Positions 2,829 to 37,706 of a stretch of 64,000 nucleotides of DNA are shown one piece after another. The stretch comes from Gordonibacter sp. An230 (GTDB taxonomy: Bacteria > Actinomycetota > Coriobacteriia > Coriobacteriales > Eggerthellaceae). The notes beneath the pieces were generated by a model, which had not been told where the DNA came from, made no database searches, and saw only the letters and a list, made by a program, of their open reading frames with translations. The stretch's first letter is position 1. Each line of letters begins with the position of its first letter. The stretch covers positions 62,001-126,000 of the forward strand of contig NZ_NFJP01000005.1 in assembly GCF_002159915.1 (NCBI RefSeq), read 5' to 3'. Made by a program: the position numbers and the translations under genes.

Positions 2829-2975
2829 GAGAATGCGACGTCGCGCGCATCCTGCGTTTCCGCGTTCGTCGAGAGCCGACAAGGCGGCTGCGCACTGCGC
2901 GAATACCTGGCGGTCCCGCTTCCTCATGCGCGGACTGCGCGGCATCAGACCGCGAGCCTGGCAAGCAGGTACCAG

Positions 2976-2998
2976 AAACCAACAAGGTTTGTTGGTTT
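2976..2998 (+). promoter_or_regulatory. Leader hairpin upstream of infA (possible attenuator)
   Basis: A perfect 10-bp stem (2976-2985 with 2989-2998) with a 3-nt loop, an A-rich 5' flank and TTTT overlapping its 3' end lies inside the untranslated leader. The form is that of an intrinsic terminator placed before the first gene. This could attenuate the operon; alternatively it terminates an upstream transcript and a second promoter with a TACTAT -10 at 3045-3050 serves infA. Confidence 0.5.
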
Positions 2999-3093
2999 TG
3001 TGCGCTCATCCCGCTTTTTCCTCCACATCTCGTCAATAGTTTGGTACTATCCATGATTGCTGCTTAACGACGATTTCGCTTGGAGGAGCACCT

Positions 3094-9445: not shown

Positions 9446-11173
9446 CTACTCGGCGCCGGCCAGCTTGCGGCCGGTCACGTAGCCGAACGTGAGGCACGTG
9501 CCGCCCAGGTTATGGCCGGGGAAGTGCGTGGAGTAGCAGTTGGTGTACATATCGCCCACCGTGGAGCCCAGGCAGTACAGGCCGTCGATGACCTCGTCGT
9601 TGGCGTTCATGACCTGCAGGTCCTCGTTGCAGCGGATGCCGCCGGTGGTGGACAGGAACCATGGCGTGCACTCTATGCCGTAGAACGGACCCTTCTTGAT
9701 GGGCAGCAGCAGCTCCTTGCGCTTGCCGAACTCCTCGTCGACGCCTGTGTCGCAGTAGCCGTTGTACGCCTCGATGGTCTTGAGCGCCTCGTCCTTCGGC
9801 AGGCCGAGCTTCTCCACGAGCTCCTCCACGGTGTCGGCCTTGATCATCTTCACCGGGATGTCGCCCGAGCCGTTCATGTTGATGGTGCCGGGTCCGTCCA
9901 CCACGGTCTGCCAGTAGGCGCGCACGTCGTCGGGCGTGTCGAACACCTTCGGGCCGTCCACGTAGCGGTGGTTCTGCCAGCCCGGTTCGTTCGCGTAGTC
10001 GTCATCCCAGATGGCGAACGCGTGATTACCTTTCTGGTGCATGAGCGCCAAGCCGCCGTGCGAGATGACGTTGTCCTCGTTGTCGTAGCGGCGGCCGTCC
10101 TCGTTCACCATGAGGCCCTGGAACGCGCGCACCTGGCGCGTGATGGAGCGCCACTGGAAGCAGAAGATCATGGGCGCGGGCGTCTCGCTCTTGTCGACGG
10201 CAGCACCGGCCCAGTACGCCATCTTGTGGCCCGAGCCGTTCCAGATGCCGCCGAACTCGGTCTGGTGCGCCGCCCAGGGGATGAACTTCTCCAGCATGTC
10301 CTTGTCCTGGCCGAAGTCGCCCGTGGCGATGACCACGCCGTTCTTTCCGTTGAATCGCACGTAGCCGTCCTTGCCCTTCGCCACGACGCCCACCACCTTG
10401 TCGCCGTCCTTCGCGAGCTGCTGCGCCTCGGTCTCGTAGCGGATGTCCACGCCGGCTTTCTCGCAGTACAGCGCCATGTTCGCGCACACGTCCTGCTGCG
10501 GGTTGTCGTCGGGGCCCTTGCCGTTGGGGCCGTCGAGGAACTCGTGCGTGCCGGGGAACTCGCCGTTGATGTTCTCCGGATCCTCGTACCAGTGCTCCAT
10601 GACGGGGGTGAGGTCGTCGCCGCCCACGGAGCTGGCCGTGGTCATGCGGTCGATGAGCCAGTCCATGGCCTCGCCCGAGCGGTTGAAGTGCAGCATCCAT
10701 TTCCGGCCGTCCACGCGGTAGGAGTGGTAGCCCATCATGCGCTTGTAGCGCTGGGCCACCTCCTCGACGGAGCACTCGTAGCCCTTCTCCTTCGTGAGCT
10801 TCGAGTTCATGGCGTAGATGGAGCCGCCGCGTCCGCTGACGTGGTCCATGCGCTCGAGCAGCACCACTGAGGCGCCGTTTTCGGCGGCTGAGAGCGCACA
10901 GCATAGGCCTGAGAAGCCGGCGCCGATGACCACGACGTCGGCGTCCACCGTCTCGGCGATGTCGCTGTCGGGGATGGGATCGGGTGCGATCTCGAACTCG
11001 TAGGCGGTTGCGCCGTCGGCCTGGCCTTTCGAGGCGCCGTCCACGCTCCCTTTCGGCTGCGCGCCGCATCCGGCGAGCGCGCCCGCGCCGGTGACGGCGG
11101 CTGTGGCCATGGCGCCGGTGGCAAGCGCCCCCTTCAAAAAGCTGCGGCGATTCATGTTGGGGCTGTTCTTCAT
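9446..11173 (-). CDS. Tat lipoprotein FAD-dependent reductase (fumarate/urocanate-reductase-like)
   Basis: 575 residues. The twin-arginine signal NRRSFLKGA (8-16) is followed by a hydrophobic stretch and lipobox L-A-G-C with Cys36, so the enzyme is folded and flavinated inside, then exported and lipid-anchored. Next comes the FAD dinucleotide fold (ADVVVIGAGFSGLCCALSAAENGA, near 79-102) and the FAD_binding_2/fumarate reductase flavoprotein body, ending in a conserved L-G-S-T...G-G-T-C FAD-cap region. No covalent-FMN or multiheme domain is fused, so electrons must come from a separate carrier. Start ATG 11173 follows GGAAGGGATCGCC. It is divergent from a membrane LuxR regulator. The substrate cannot be told from sequence. 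Confidence 0.86.
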   Translation of the reverse strand: MKNSPNMNRRSFLKGALATGAMATAAVTGAGALAGCGAQPKGSVDGASKGQADGATAYEFEIAPDPIPDSDIAETVDADVVVIGAGFSGLCCALSAAENGASVVLLERMDHVSGRGGSIYAMNSKLTKEKGYECSVEEVAQRYKRMMGYHSYRVDGRKWMLHFNRSGEAMDWLIDRMTTASSVGGDDLTPVMEHWYEDPENINGEFPGTHEFLDGPNGKGPDDNPQQDVCANMALYCEKAGVDIRYETEAQQLAKDGDKVVGVVAKGKDGYVRFNGKNGVVIATGDFGQDKDMLEKFIPWAAHQTEFGGIWNGSGHKMAYWAGAAVDKSETPAPMIFCFQWRSITRQVRAFQGLMVNEDGRRYDNEDNVISHGGLALMHQKGNHAFAIWDDDYANEPGWQNHRYVDGPKVFDTPDDVRAYWQTVVDGPGTINMNGSGDIPVKMIKADTVEELVEKLGLPKDEALKTIEAYNGYCDTGVDEEFGKRKELLLPIKKGPFYGIECTPWFLSTTGGIRCNEDLQVMNANDEVIDGLYCLGSTVGDMYTNCYSTHFPGHNLGGTCLTFGYVTGRKLAGAE

Positions 11174-15000: not shown

Positions 15001-15060
15001 TGCGTGCGGGGAGGGTGCTGCGCGCATGTCGCTTCGAGACGGCTGCGGCGCGCGGTCAGA

Positions 15061-15385
15061 GGAAGCTCGGCTCGATAATGGGAGAACGTAAGTTCGTGTC
15101 GATCCTTGTCTAGCAGAGGGAAGCGGATGCCTTTTTAGCACAAAAAAATGCGTAAGAACGATTATCCAACCGGGCAGGATTCTACGAACTGGCGTTTCCT
15201 CAAGAACGGCCTCGAAGGAAGCGATTAGATCGTTCTTAACCGTGATTTTATGCTGCCTCCTTCTTCTTCGGCCTCTGCTTGGCCGCCGTCGACTTTGGCT
15301 TGGTTGGATCGCCATGTCCGACCAGAGGATCTAGGCTCGATACGTGGCGAGCATGAGTTCGTGCCGATCATGGTTTAGCGTAGGC
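15061..15385 (+). repeat. Composite intergenic repeat, copy 1
   Basis: This stretch matches 36774-37117 on the opposite strand from end to end. Both copies have, in order: a GGCTCGA..AAT segment; the core TTCGTGTC.ATCC..G.TTAGCAGAG (here 15093-15120); the 116-bp inverted-repeat element (15138-15253); a linker containing TTGGCCGCCGTCGAC (about 15283-15297) and GGATCGCC; and a second core (here 15358-15385). No ORF is conserved between the copies. It looks like a non-coding mobile or RNA-level repeat. Confidence 0.75.
15138..15253 (+). repeat. 116-bp MITE-like inverted-repeat element, copy 1
   Basis: Ends 15138-15162 and 15229-15253 are inverted repeats (19 of 25 positions, the inner ten perfect: TAAGAACGAT). 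The second copy at 36922-37037 is also exactly 116 bp, in opposite orientation, and shares the internal block ACGAACTGGC.TTTC. There is no room for a transposase. Local base composition is AT-richer than the surroundings. Confidence 0.75.
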
Positions 15386-15399
15386 AACGGGCGAATCGC

Positions 15400-15525
15400 G
15401 CACGTTTTTTCGTTTTTGCGAGCGAACTCGCGTTGCTTTCGGTTGTTTTTCGAAACTGCGGCCGGAAAACCCCAGATGGTGAAATTCCCCTCTTTCTCTT
15501 CGTTCCCAAAAACGAAAAAACGTGC
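15400..15525. repeat. 126-bp element bounded by 27-bp inverted repeats
   Basis: 15400-15426 and 15499-15525 are inverted repeats matching at 25 of 27 positions, starting GCACGTTTTTTCG. It directly abuts the second core of the composite repeat at 15358-15385. It may be a non-autonomous transposable element or a long hairpin RNA. No ORF. Confidence 0.65.
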
Positions 15526-28973: not shown

Positions 28974-29384
28974 GACTTCGAGGTGGGGTCTTCCCTCAAA
29001 GAAGGGGCTGAAAAGGGCGGCTAAATCGCGATGGGGCATGGGTGCTGCGCGGTGCGCGAACTCGGGGAGGGGGTCTGCGCGTCGGTGCTGGAAGGAGCGT
29101 TGCGGTTGGCGTAGCGTGAGGATTCCGGGCCTCCCCAGTCGTTTGGGGTGGCTGCTTGCGCTTTGCCGACTTTGGCTTGGCGGTTGGCGCGGCAGACGAC
29201 TTTTAAATCGGGACTGGCAAGGGCGATCCTGGTAAGGGAGGTCTTCGAACCGAGGTTGCCGGAGCTGCTTGGTAAGTCCGGTCGTCTGCTCGCGTGAGGT
29301 TTTTGGACTCGAGATTCGAATTGCGGCATGCCGGGCCTTCCGGTTCTCTTTCTGATCCTGGCTTGGCGCGGTGCGTGGTCGTTT
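28974..29384. other. Intergenic spacer, nothing recognised
   Basis: No supported gene. A G/T-rich segment near 29150-29180 shares TTTGGCTTGG-type wording with the composite-repeat linker at about 15290, too weakly to annotate. Confidence 0.35.
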
Positions 29385-29547
29385 CTGTCGAAATTTGCGT
29401 TTGGTGAACGGTTTTGCTGCTTGGGGCGGCGTTTTGGTCTTTGCCGAGATCATGCGGAACGACATCGCCTGGGCTTTTTCTTCCGGCTTCTTCCCGCCGC
29501 TTTTCTCGCGGTCCCGAAACCGTTCACCAAACGCAAATTTCCGACAG
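29385..29547. repeat. 163-bp element bounded by long inverted repeats
   Basis: 29391-29414 and 29517-29540 are a perfect 24-bp inverted repeat (AAATTTGCGTTTGGTG...); just outside, CTGTCG pairs with CCGACAG, extending the arms to about 30 bp. The 102-bp interior encodes nothing convincing. It may be a MITE or a hairpin RNA, and it lies 80 bp before a copy of the dispersed repeat unit. Confidence 0.7.
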
Positions 29548-29626
29548 AGGGCGGCTTTTGTATTTGTTAAACCGCTGTTGACAGAGGTTGGGTTGGCTCG
29601 TCGAGCAAGGTTCTGTCGGCGCCGCA

Positions 29627-29750
29627 GGAGGCCCCGCCCGTCGGACTGGGAGGGGCCTTGCGAAGCGTCCGACCGGAGAAAGTCCGGCTCGAGAATAGGC
29701 GAGCGCGGGTTCGTGTCAATCCAGGCTTAACAGAGACCCGCGTTTTTGCC
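29627..29750 (+). repeat. Dispersed repeat unit (R unit), copy with terminator-like end
   Basis: It starts with GGAGGCCCC (hairpin 29629-29635 with 29652-29658), continues through GTCCGGCTCGAGAAT, and has the core 29710-29738. The same layout occurs on the minus strand at 37087-37200, with exactly 83 bp from the GGAG block to the core in both. Here CGCGGGT (29704-29710) can pair with ACCCGCG (29736-29742) just before TTTTT, giving a terminator-like 3' end. Confidence 0.7.
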
Positions 29751-29995
29751 ATCGAGTTGTGGCCGGTCTTGTGGGCGAACGGATTGAAAGCGGGATGTGT
29801 TTTGCTGCGATGAGGCGGGGTGTCGCGCGGCGTGCGGGATTTTGCGGCCATTTCTATTTCCAGTGCTCGTGCATGCGAAGTCCTCGAAAAACGGACGTAA
29901 GGGAGGTCGCGCTCGGATGGAGCGGCAAATTGGCGAGCTGTTATTTTGCAGGGGTTCTGGGGATCGTCGGAGGGTATGGGAGGGGAAGGAGGACG

Positions 29996-36724: not shown

Positions 36725-36773
36725 GGCGCAGCGGTGCGCGACATGCGGCGTGTGCTGTGCGGGAAAACGGCGC
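36725..36773. other. Short spacer before the repeat cluster
   Basis: Nothing recognised between the LuxR stop and the first repeat core. TTTTCCC on the minus strand after the core at 36774 gives that copy a terminator-like tail. Confidence 0.35.
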
Positions 36774-36921
36774 GGTCTATGCTAAACCAGGATTGAAGCG
36801 AAATTGTGTTCGCCGTATCTTGAACGGGGCTCTCTGGTCGAATCGGAGTTCTCTGATGGAGGGCGGCGATCCGACCTAGCCTATGTCGACGGCGGCCAAG
36901 CGGAGGTCGACGAGGGCGATG

Positions 36922-37037
36922 GCGCAAAATCACGATTAAGAACGATTTTCTCGTTCCTATCGAAATCATTTTTGGTGAAATGCCAGTTCGTGAAATTTTA
37001 TCCAATCAAAAAATCGCTCTTGACCGTGATTTTGCGC
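36922..37037 (-). repeat. 116-bp MITE-like inverted-repeat element, copy 2
   Basis: Terminal inverted repeats 36922-36948 and 37011-37037 match at 24 of 27 positions, beginning GCGCAAAATCACG. Length is identical to copy 1 (15138-15253) and orientation is opposite. The interior is AT-rich and non-coding. Confidence 0.78.
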
Positions 37038-37043
37038 TAAAAA

Positions 37044-37092
37044 GACACCGGCCCCTTATGTCAATCCCGGTTTGACATAAGGGGCCGGTGTC
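37044..37092. repeat. Perfect 21-bp hairpin
   Basis: 37044-37064 pairs perfectly with 37072-37092 around a 7-nt loop. On the minus strand it is followed by TTTTTAGC, so it could act as a terminator. The loop region (TGTCAATCCCGGTTTGACA) is itself a variant of the repeat core. Confidence 0.8.
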
Positions 37093-37200
37093 TCTGTTGA
37101 GACAGGATCGGCACGAGTTTGCGGTCGCTGATCTCCGAGCCTAGCTTGTTCTGGTTGGATGCTTCGGGAGGCCCCTCCTGCCCGACGGGCGGGGCCTCCC
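37087..37200 (-). repeat. Dispersed repeat unit (R unit), minus-strand copy
   Basis: Minus-strand homologue of 29627-29740. It has a 10-bp hairpin GGGAGGCCCC/GGGGCCTCCC (37166-37175 with 37191-37200), the GGCTCGGAGAT segment, and the core at 37117-37087. The hairpin-to-core distance is 83 bp, as in the other full copy. Confidence 0.72.
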
Positions 37201-37240
37201 GAGATGTCGGCGGAGCCTCGTCCATCGGGCCGATCTGTCC

Positions 37241-37269
37241 TATGTCGGTTCTGGTTGAGCAGAGACGCG
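37241..37269 (+). repeat. Additional repeat core
   Basis: TATGTCGGTTCTGGTTGAGC then AGAGACGCG matches the 29-nt core in most positions. A weaker minus-strand copy may lie at about 37285-37325. Confidence 0.55.
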
Positions 37270-37706
37270 ACGTGAAAATGGCCACGGAGCCGCGTTCTGG
37301 CGCAAAACCGGCTCAAGATAGAGATGCGCTTGCCCAGTCGATTTGCGCGACCGGGGGCTTCGACGAGGCTCGGGCGGCGAAAGGGAGCCGTCGGGGTCGC
37401 GATCCGTGCCAGAGCGCGGCCCGTGGCCATTTTCGGCGTTCGCGCGTTCACGAAAGGGCGAGAAGCCGTTTTTTGGGTTGGGGGGCGATCAGACGCGGGA
37501 GGGGGAGGGGTCGAACGTTCGAGGGCCTTCCGTGCTGACCGGCCGACGGTTGCCGCTTTTGCCTGGCCGAGGCGCTGTTTGTGCGCTCGGCATGCAGGGC
37601 CGAACGCTTGCGGGAGGCGAATCGTCGCAGGTCTGCCGCAGTCGCCCTCCTTTACCGCCTGCGCGCCGCATGCGGGGTGTGTCCCGACGTATCGGGCTTG
37701 TCCGAG
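37270..37706. other. Intergenic spacer upstream of alr, nothing recognised
   Basis: The frame is open through much of this region toward alr, but it lacks a ribosome binding site and conserved sequence. Confidence 0.35.

Follow-up and report, generated by a model that had tools for sequence, protein, structure and literature searches.

The composite locus and its parts

The DNA analysed here, a 64-kb window from the 3.88-Mb draft genome of Gordonibacter sp. An230 (G000), carries two composites, copies A and B, which share the layout E2-E1-E2, lie in opposite orientation and align over their length, with copy A retrieving copy B at E=1.4e-21 and 73% identity when used as a query against the genome. 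An earlier note on this DNA had correctly recognised the pair, within limits (15061-15385 and 36774-37117) that prove too tight: copy A starts at ~15013 and runs on its right side into a further hairpin, I8, and copy B is a 492-bp insertion spanning 36775-37266. Briefly, E1 is a long hairpin that, with its terminal bases included, measures 120 bp in both copies, and E2 is a separate unit of ~172 bp, the ends of which account for the ‘cores’ and the GGCTCGA segment previously described. The inverted repeat that had been given as exactly 116 bp is indeed so for copy B (36922-37037), the figure being that of E1 minus its last bases. The two cores were said to share one orientation within each copy, and the E2 matches agree, both being on the minus strand at A and both on the plus strand at B. 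What has to be given up is the idea of one element with a single layout; each copy combines two kinds that are independent of each other, E1 and E2.

Read from left to right, copy A consists of a partial E2 unit, an IS1595-type MITE (15013-15118, minus strand; R2 model, 30.3 bits, E=8.4e-5), the E1 hairpin (15136-15255, plus strand; R1 model, E=8.5e-20), with the loop box GAACTGGCGTTTC, and a shortened E2 unit (15273-15383, minus strand; 53.9 bits, E=4.7e-10). The repeat finder places I8, a 126-bp hairpin of a second family with 27-nt arms, 16 bp past this unit, at 15400-15525, and also a hairpin of a third family, I9 (29390-29541, 152 bp, with perfect 25-nt arms), which lies 20 bp from an E2 unit that stands apart from E1 (29562-29735, minus strand; 141.1 bits, E=1.8e-29). 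Copy B holds an E2 unit (36777-36905, plus strand; 50.8 bits, E=2.2e-9), the E1 hairpin (36920-37039, minus strand; R1 model, E=1.6e-27), with the loop box GAACTGGCATTTC, and a full-length E2 unit (37092-37264, plus strand; 118.8 bits, E=1.7e-24). The E2 model thus matches five units in the window, two at A, one by I9 and two at B. Adjoining copy B at ~37274-37435 is E4, of a fourth hairpin family, which is too decayed for the hairpin finder and is known by its likeness to an intact hairpin in Rubneribacter badeniensis (83% identity). The long hairpins of the window therefore fall into four families, E1, I8, I9 and E4, and the last three each lie at an E2 edge. Rfam returned no match above gathering in the 64-kb window.

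Between E1 and the second E2 unit of copy B lies a short hairpin with 25-nt arms (37043-37093, inverted-repeat pair I15), its arm reading ACCGGCCCCTTATGTCAA... and followed by TTTTT; it has E2-end-like sequence inside and could serve as a terminator. In a R. badeniensis stretch (L356), two closely similar 163-bp hairpins of the E4 family are found ~7 kb apart, at 2908-3070 and 9970-10132.

Orthologous sites

R. badeniensis (G089) lacks the composite at its counterpart of site B, where the sequence runs uninterrupted as GGGAAAACGGCGCG/AAAATGG; at this point the window carries an additional 492 bp (36775-37266) followed by 8 bp. These 8 bp (GCGACGTG, 37267-37274) are a decayed, position-matched counterpart of ACGGCGCG at 36767-36774, identical at five of eight positions, an arrangement consistent with the geometry of an 8-bp target duplication. 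As the sequence adjoining site B is hairpin E4, insertion B, too, lies at a hairpin foot. A second genome, G088, has 47 bp at site B versus 988 bp in the window. For site A, the comparison is 47 bp in R. badeniensis versus 785 bp in the window, with a junction that is not clean. The gap that holds I9 and its E2 unit in the window (28980-29991) is occupied by another hairpin family in G089 and G088, two congeneric genomes (L356 9842-10251 and L357 11094-11680), and the hairpins of these two gaps align end to end as diverged versions of one family. We take the composite to be mobile, and not one element.

E2, a miniature element of the IS1595 family

The length of E2, ~172 bp in general and about 163-178 bp in R. 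badeniensis, with most model matches elsewhere spanning 100-230 bp, makes it too short to encode its own transposase. A pattern describing its ends has 56 matches in five genomes and none in the reversed control, and at some places such ends face inward 1.1 kb apart and enclose full insertion sequences (L315 in G053; L316 and L317 in G055). The latter two have an open 339-aa IS1595 transposase frame, matching NF033547 at E=9e-32 in L316; the frame in L315 looks broken. Among 13 elements bounded by E2 ends, the flanking 8-mers match at 7-8 of 8 positions in seven, against 1 of 156 mismatched-pair controls, and the other six show no duplication at that level. The available passages of one paper give 8 bp as the usual target duplication of the IS1595 family (PMC8101967). 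By these signs E2 is best described as a miniature, non-autonomous element derived from an insertion sequence of the IS1595 family, which is a known kind of element. The possibility set out at the start, that both regions derive from a known insertion sequence, thus holds for the E2 part; E1 belongs to the nuclease-linked hairpin class described below.

Of 30 extracted E2 units, 25 are in alignment A1. The R2 model, built mostly from units beside E1, matches in 16 of 138 Eggerthellaceae genomes, with at least 20 matches each in G000, G088 and G089; in other genera, the ends of E2 are kept and the interior is different. Folding of mixed E2 subtypes with RNAalifold gave 26 pairs, six of them with two-sided changes, on which account we claim no RNA role for E2. 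One other identity was considered and set aside. Integron attC sites have the consensus end GTTRRRY, in which GTT is invariant, and E2 ends read GTT, GTC, GCC and GCG, so that this invariant is not kept. A separate partner gene for E2 was also sought, and the 25 E2 loci, compared by eye, share open reading frames only where they overlap, form E2 arrays or bear the nuclease gene; it was the pairs of E2 ends 1.1 kb apart that led to the partner.

Some E2 units and ends in G066 enclose other sequences. At L318 (503-2035), two E2 ends separated by 1.5 kb have an IS110-family transposase gene between them, and a hairpin follows 20 bp past one of the ends. In L283, L319, L320 and L325, the E2 interior holds the hairpin CCTGAGCGGAG...CTCAGGATGAC, as if another repeat had been captured.

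Placement of E2 at hairpin feet

The spacing between E1 and the E2 end, measurable on 27 sides in R. badeniensis and G000, is exactly 18 on 22 of them, and the sequence in between differs. Of 46 sides, 19 had no E2 end within the mismatch permitted. The association extends beyond E1. Of 22 E2 loci, 10 have a long hairpin no more than 40 bp from E2 (at 2-21 bp as observed), versus six hairpins in 64,262 bp elsewhere; the hairpins near E2 belong to several unrelated sequence families. The remaining 12 loci have no hairpin at that distance. Three of 25 loci were left out of this census because of their length, and L287, cut by a contig end so that its E2 limits are misplaced, was scored as a miss. 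Similarly, a hairpin stands 10-20 bp from the GTTAAACC core in seven of the 13 bounded elements, two of these sharing one hairpin, and all five E2 units of the window have a hairpin within ~9-20 bp on at least one side.

The simplest reading of the near-constant spacing and of the several unrelated hairpin families is that E2, and perhaps also its parent insertion sequence, inserts at the hairpin foot, and an element placed at a nearly fixed distance from hairpins would produce the repeated E2-E1-E2 layout. The reverse, in which hairpins choose E2 ends, is less likely because, of 13 E1 copies examined in G055, just one has an E2-like end no more than 40 bp away.

The E1 hairpin family

E1 is composed of two complementary arms of ~29 nt around a loop of ~60 nt, within which the box GACCTGG..TTT is conserved. 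A search of the GTDB-220 collection, from which records of the window’s own genome were possibly excluded, found the exact arm pattern in 18 stretches, all from R. badeniensis; no viral contig contained it. The covariance model R1 is more permissive, locating E1 at 20 places in R. badeniensis (E<=1e-20) and at 11 in G000 (E<=2e-6), and E1-like elements in 31 of 138 Eggerthellaceae genomes. The prospect that no further copies would exist in related genomes, under which the original proposal was to be abandoned, is thereby removed. Most copies examined are 118-120 bp long, with subtypes of 130, 141-143 and 151-152 bp.

While the arm sequences vary widely between copies, their complementarity is kept. 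In an alignment of 41 diverse copies (A4; L146, which nearly duplicates L142, was omitted, as were L167, the subtypes of 130-152 bp and the majority of the copies from R. badeniensis), 94.9% of arm cells are paired, versus 32.6-40.1% when the arms are slid against each other, and two-sided compensatory cells number 190 versus 54.6 in shuffles, with two-sided changes at 21 of the 29 pairs. As each copy keeps its hairpin while the arms drift, the arms are under hairpin-level constraint or undergo arm-to-arm correction, rather than plain decay. The earlier suggestion of an element maintained by mobility or by a function at the RNA or DNA level is therefore upheld in part: site B is interrupted by a mobile composite and arm covariation reveals a constrained hairpin, and only the notion of one element family falls away.

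One alternative is that the hairpins are ordinary MITEs of DDE insertion sequences, which share permissive intergenic spots with the nuclease genes described below. E1 has the terminal inverted repeats and near-constant length of such elements, and often TA at each end, and IS1595 MITEs do accumulate beside hairpins; its arm changes are nevertheless compensatory and not those of independent decay, and the nuclease loci provide further evidence against this alternative. For E1 alone, we obtained neither a clean empty site nor a target duplication.

An insertion-sequence end like GGGGTGCGGAC... breaks E1 hairpins in R. badeniensis at L064 (near 160) and L068 (near 201); a related one adjoins a hairpin near the end of L017, on contig C41 of G000. 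Hairpins may thus attract a second kind of insertion sequence.

A DUF559-type nuclease beside E1

Relatives of a protein of ~311 aa, encoded next to E1, were present in eight of 74 sequences searched, and at three loci the gene has E1 on both sides: L059 in R. badeniensis, L144 in G068 and L165 on contig C37 of the window’s own genome. The R. badeniensis protein, P0001, matches Pfam DUF559 at 25.7 bits (cut-off 20.6) and has no Pfam match in its N-terminal two thirds; two other members tested alongside it fall below the DUF559 cut-off. Across 60 paralogues of 295-345 aa (alignment A3, drawn from 70), DUF559 is matched at E<=0.01 in 20 and REase_MTES_1575 in 34. Y1_Tnp is absent from the Pfam matches of the 60 members at E<=0.01 and from those of three members at E<=1. 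The alignment has 12 invariant columns, among them D220, W223, E231, Y232, H237, D246 and R249, as expected for an active nuclease. A single-sequence structure model of P0001 reached a pLDDT of only 35, and the best match among solved structures is a weak one, to 3r3p, ‘Mobile intron protein’ (E=0.11). One DUF559 protein is described, in the available part of its source, as Vsr-like PD-(D/E)XK (PMC12907096), and the hairpin-linked protein is probably likewise a DUF559-type predicted nuclease of the Vsr-like PD-(D/E)XK kind.

Homologues occur in 110 of 138 Eggerthellaceae genomes at E<=1e-5 and, at E<=1e-8, in 269 of the 396 Coriobacteriia genomes that were sampled, a distant relative being found in Collinsella aerofaciens. 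Phage records yielded none and plasmid records only two, both from Collinsella. Nuclease genes are often syntenic between genomes (L204/L211, L215/L228, L216/L229 and L219/L242), which indicates that the gene itself seldom jumps.

The strong expansion of paralogues across those 269 Coriobacteriia genomes, together with the weak restriction-type matches (PADLOC mREase_II in 23 of the 60 members and MTES_1575 in the 34 mentioned above), would suit a restriction-like or addiction module, for which the hairpins would be decoys or tolerated sites and their spread a by-product of cutting and repair. Modules of this type are not known to have a pair of hairpins on their flanks, and we regard this explanation as very improbable.

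Nuclease paralogues and their own hairpins

The association of nuclease genes with hairpins is not confined to E1. For this part of the analysis, 70 Eggerthellaceae nuclease loci were picked by protein match, 30 as the best in their genome and 40 from the match list. A hairpin of 100-200 bp lies within 700 bp of the gene in 49 of them, on both sides in 11, and 21 have no detectable hairpin within that distance; the 700-bp limit was fixed after first looks at the loci, and six of the 70 had previously been seen beside E1, without which the count becomes 43 of 64. Within the same loci, 60 hairpins occur in 97,256 bp near nuclease genes versus two in 112,721 bp farther away, and five shuffled windows contained no such hairpins. 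The pattern recurs outside the Eggerthellaceae, where nine of 25 nuclease loci have a hairpin, with 10 near and 0 far, and 16 have none that was detectable.

Most of the paralogue hairpins are 117-190 bp long with arms of 23-51 bp, and their sequences differ between paralogues. At the two-sided loci, both hairpins agree in sequence in every case (11 of 11, with arm scores of 19-29, versus an all-pair mean of ~6 for distant paralogues). More generally, the more alike two nuclease proteins are, the more alike their hairpin arms tend to be (Mantel rho 0.33, p<=0.001), and this extends to proteins less than 50% identical (rho 0.21, p 0.001). The correlation is in part the shared ancestry of linked DNA. 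The orthologous nuclease genes of L194 and L246 have adjoining hairpins that differ. The commonest 6-mer in the loops is ACCTGG or its complement, in 21 of 60 hairpins, where shuffled loops reach a maximum of 12 for any 6-mer; CGAAAA (20 of 60) and GCGTTT (19 of 60) are nearly as common.

For E1, I8 and I9, the three window families that the search covered, the window’s own genome has a nuclease paralogue with a matching hairpin at or near it: besides the E1-flanked gene on C37, an I8-family hairpin lies ~270 bp upstream of the nuclease gene C38:10520-11440, and the nuclease gene C5:67315-68169, at a locus below the threshold of the 70-locus census, has copies of I9 at ~0.6 kb on its upstream side and at 1 kb on its downstream side. 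Away from these genes the families are dispersed, I9 being present at nine places in G000, with one further 25-bp interior match, and I8 at five. On C52, a nuclease fragment of the E1 type has an arm of the I9 type next to it, so that neighbourhood alone is no proof of pairing. The genome G066 has 17 E1 matches, yet its best nuclease match is just 43% identical to the E1-type protein.

These data bear on the view that the hairpins are ordinary MITEs, which offers no ready place for hairpins that are ~35-fold denser near nuclease genes than at least 0.7 kb away in the same loci, nor for two-sided hairpins that belong to one family at all 11 loci while the family differs between paralogues; taken with the compensatory arm changes, they leave it rather unlikely. 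A second alternative concerns regulation, with the hairpins acting in cis on the nuclease gene as operators, attenuators or RNA hairpins, and the dispersed copies forming the regulon of a DNA-binding nuclease. It would account for the upstream hairpins, which at many loci end 17-49 bp before the matched gene start, and for the conserved length and loop box of E1. Hairpins are found downstream of the nuclease gene too, however, and the orthologous sites (B, A and the I9 gap) differ in their hairpins between congeneric species, which fits turnover better than a conserved regulon; we therefore think a regulatory role of this type unlikely.

A proposed explanation

The explanation that we favour, and consider probable, is that the composites unite two unrelated mobile partners, namely hairpins paired with paralogues of a DUF559-type nuclease and an IS1595-type MITE that inserts at hairpin feet. 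Its direct support comes from the flanking of nuclease genes by hairpins, the dispersal of three hairpin families, the complementarity of the arms, the correspondence between protein and hairpin, the identity of E2 and one interrupted site.

In mechanistic terms, each nuclease would recognise its own cognate hairpin and cut it, probably in the single-stranded form that arises at replication, thereby copying or maintaining the hairpin in trans, as RAYT is thought to do for REP/REPIN. That the nuclease moves hairpins is something we infer. E2, carrying the terminal repeats of its insertion sequence, would then insert at the feet of hairpins of several families, duplicating 8 bp. A broader version, to which we give roughly even chances, envisages an expanded DUF559/Vsr-like family in which each paralogue propagates its own hairpin of ~120-190 bp in trans, with compensating changes in the arms and the loop box as a common handle, and an IS1595 lineage that has specialised on hairpin feet.

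If true, this would suggest a function for a large uncharacterised group of DUF559-type proteins and explain part of the intergenic repeats of Coriobacteriia. Each pair of paralogue and hairpin would amount to a natural experiment in specificity, and the targeting of hairpin feet by an IS1595 lineage is a separate claim that can be tested.

Comparison with known systems

E2 resembles the IS1595-family MITEs in having the same terminal repeats as insertion sequences with an IS1595 transposase, and in its 8-bp duplications, as far as these are covered by the available passages of PMC8101967; it is unlike them in inserting at the foot of several hairpin families. Titles and opening parts of abstracts in the open-licence literature yielded no case of IS1595 with REP targeting. 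Other insertion sequences, IS1397 and similar ones, insert in or beside REP palindromes. ISPpu9 is described, in the accessible part of one report, as inserting in or beside repeated palindromes (PMC8450116). Unlike these REP-targeting elements, E2 sits beside the hairpin and not inside it, and its hairpins are of unrelated sequence.

Among hairpins, E1 is comparable with ERIC and Correia (NEMIS) elements, which are intergenic inverted-repeat elements of ~105-160 bp. These have, to our knowledge, no associated nuclease gene, and arms that are more constant within a genome. On the side of the protein, there is a likeness to Vsr-like/EDxHD homing endonucleases, through the Vsr-like DUF559 protein described in the available passages of PMC12907096 and the weak match to 3r3p (E=0.11), from which the present genes are set apart by their flanking hairpins and by an N-terminal two thirds devoid of Pfam matches.

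The closest parallels are REP/REPIN-RAYT and the TIRtrons with their TIRYTs. According to the accessible passages on these systems, a gene is flanked by copies of a palindromic repeat, which also occurs scattered where the gene is absent, several paralogues each have their own repeat family, and hairpin changes are compensatory (PMC3733652, PMC3116915), all of which recurs here. The phylogeny of RAYTs is there said to be largely congruent with that of species (PMC3116915), which may be compared with the syntenic nuclease genes found here. The differences lie in both partners. RAYTs and TIRYTs are HUH/Y1 enzymes, whereas the protein here is of the DUF559 type and has no Y1 match, and REPs, in the passages available, are 20-40 bp long with a GTAG or CGTC tag (PMC3733652), unlike the present hairpins of mostly 117-190 bp with their 23-51-bp arms.

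Titles, opening parts of abstracts and passages in the open-licence literature held no description of a system of hairpins plus a DUF559 protein, which does not prove its absence from print; the hairpin-nuclease pairing thus appears to be new, apparently undescribed and widespread in Coriobacteriia, with E2 being of a known kind. As judged from sequence, the pairing would work like REP-RAYT and the TIRtrons and yet be no member of either, having no Y1 enzyme and no REP-type repeat. REP-RAYT is the best-known bacterial case of a chromosomal enzyme tied to dispersed hairpin families, and if our explanation is true, the Coriobacteriia contain a nuclease-driven counterpart that arose with no HUH enzyme involved. 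Resting on an unrelated enzyme, this second solution would provide an independent test of why such pairs of enzyme and hairpin persist.
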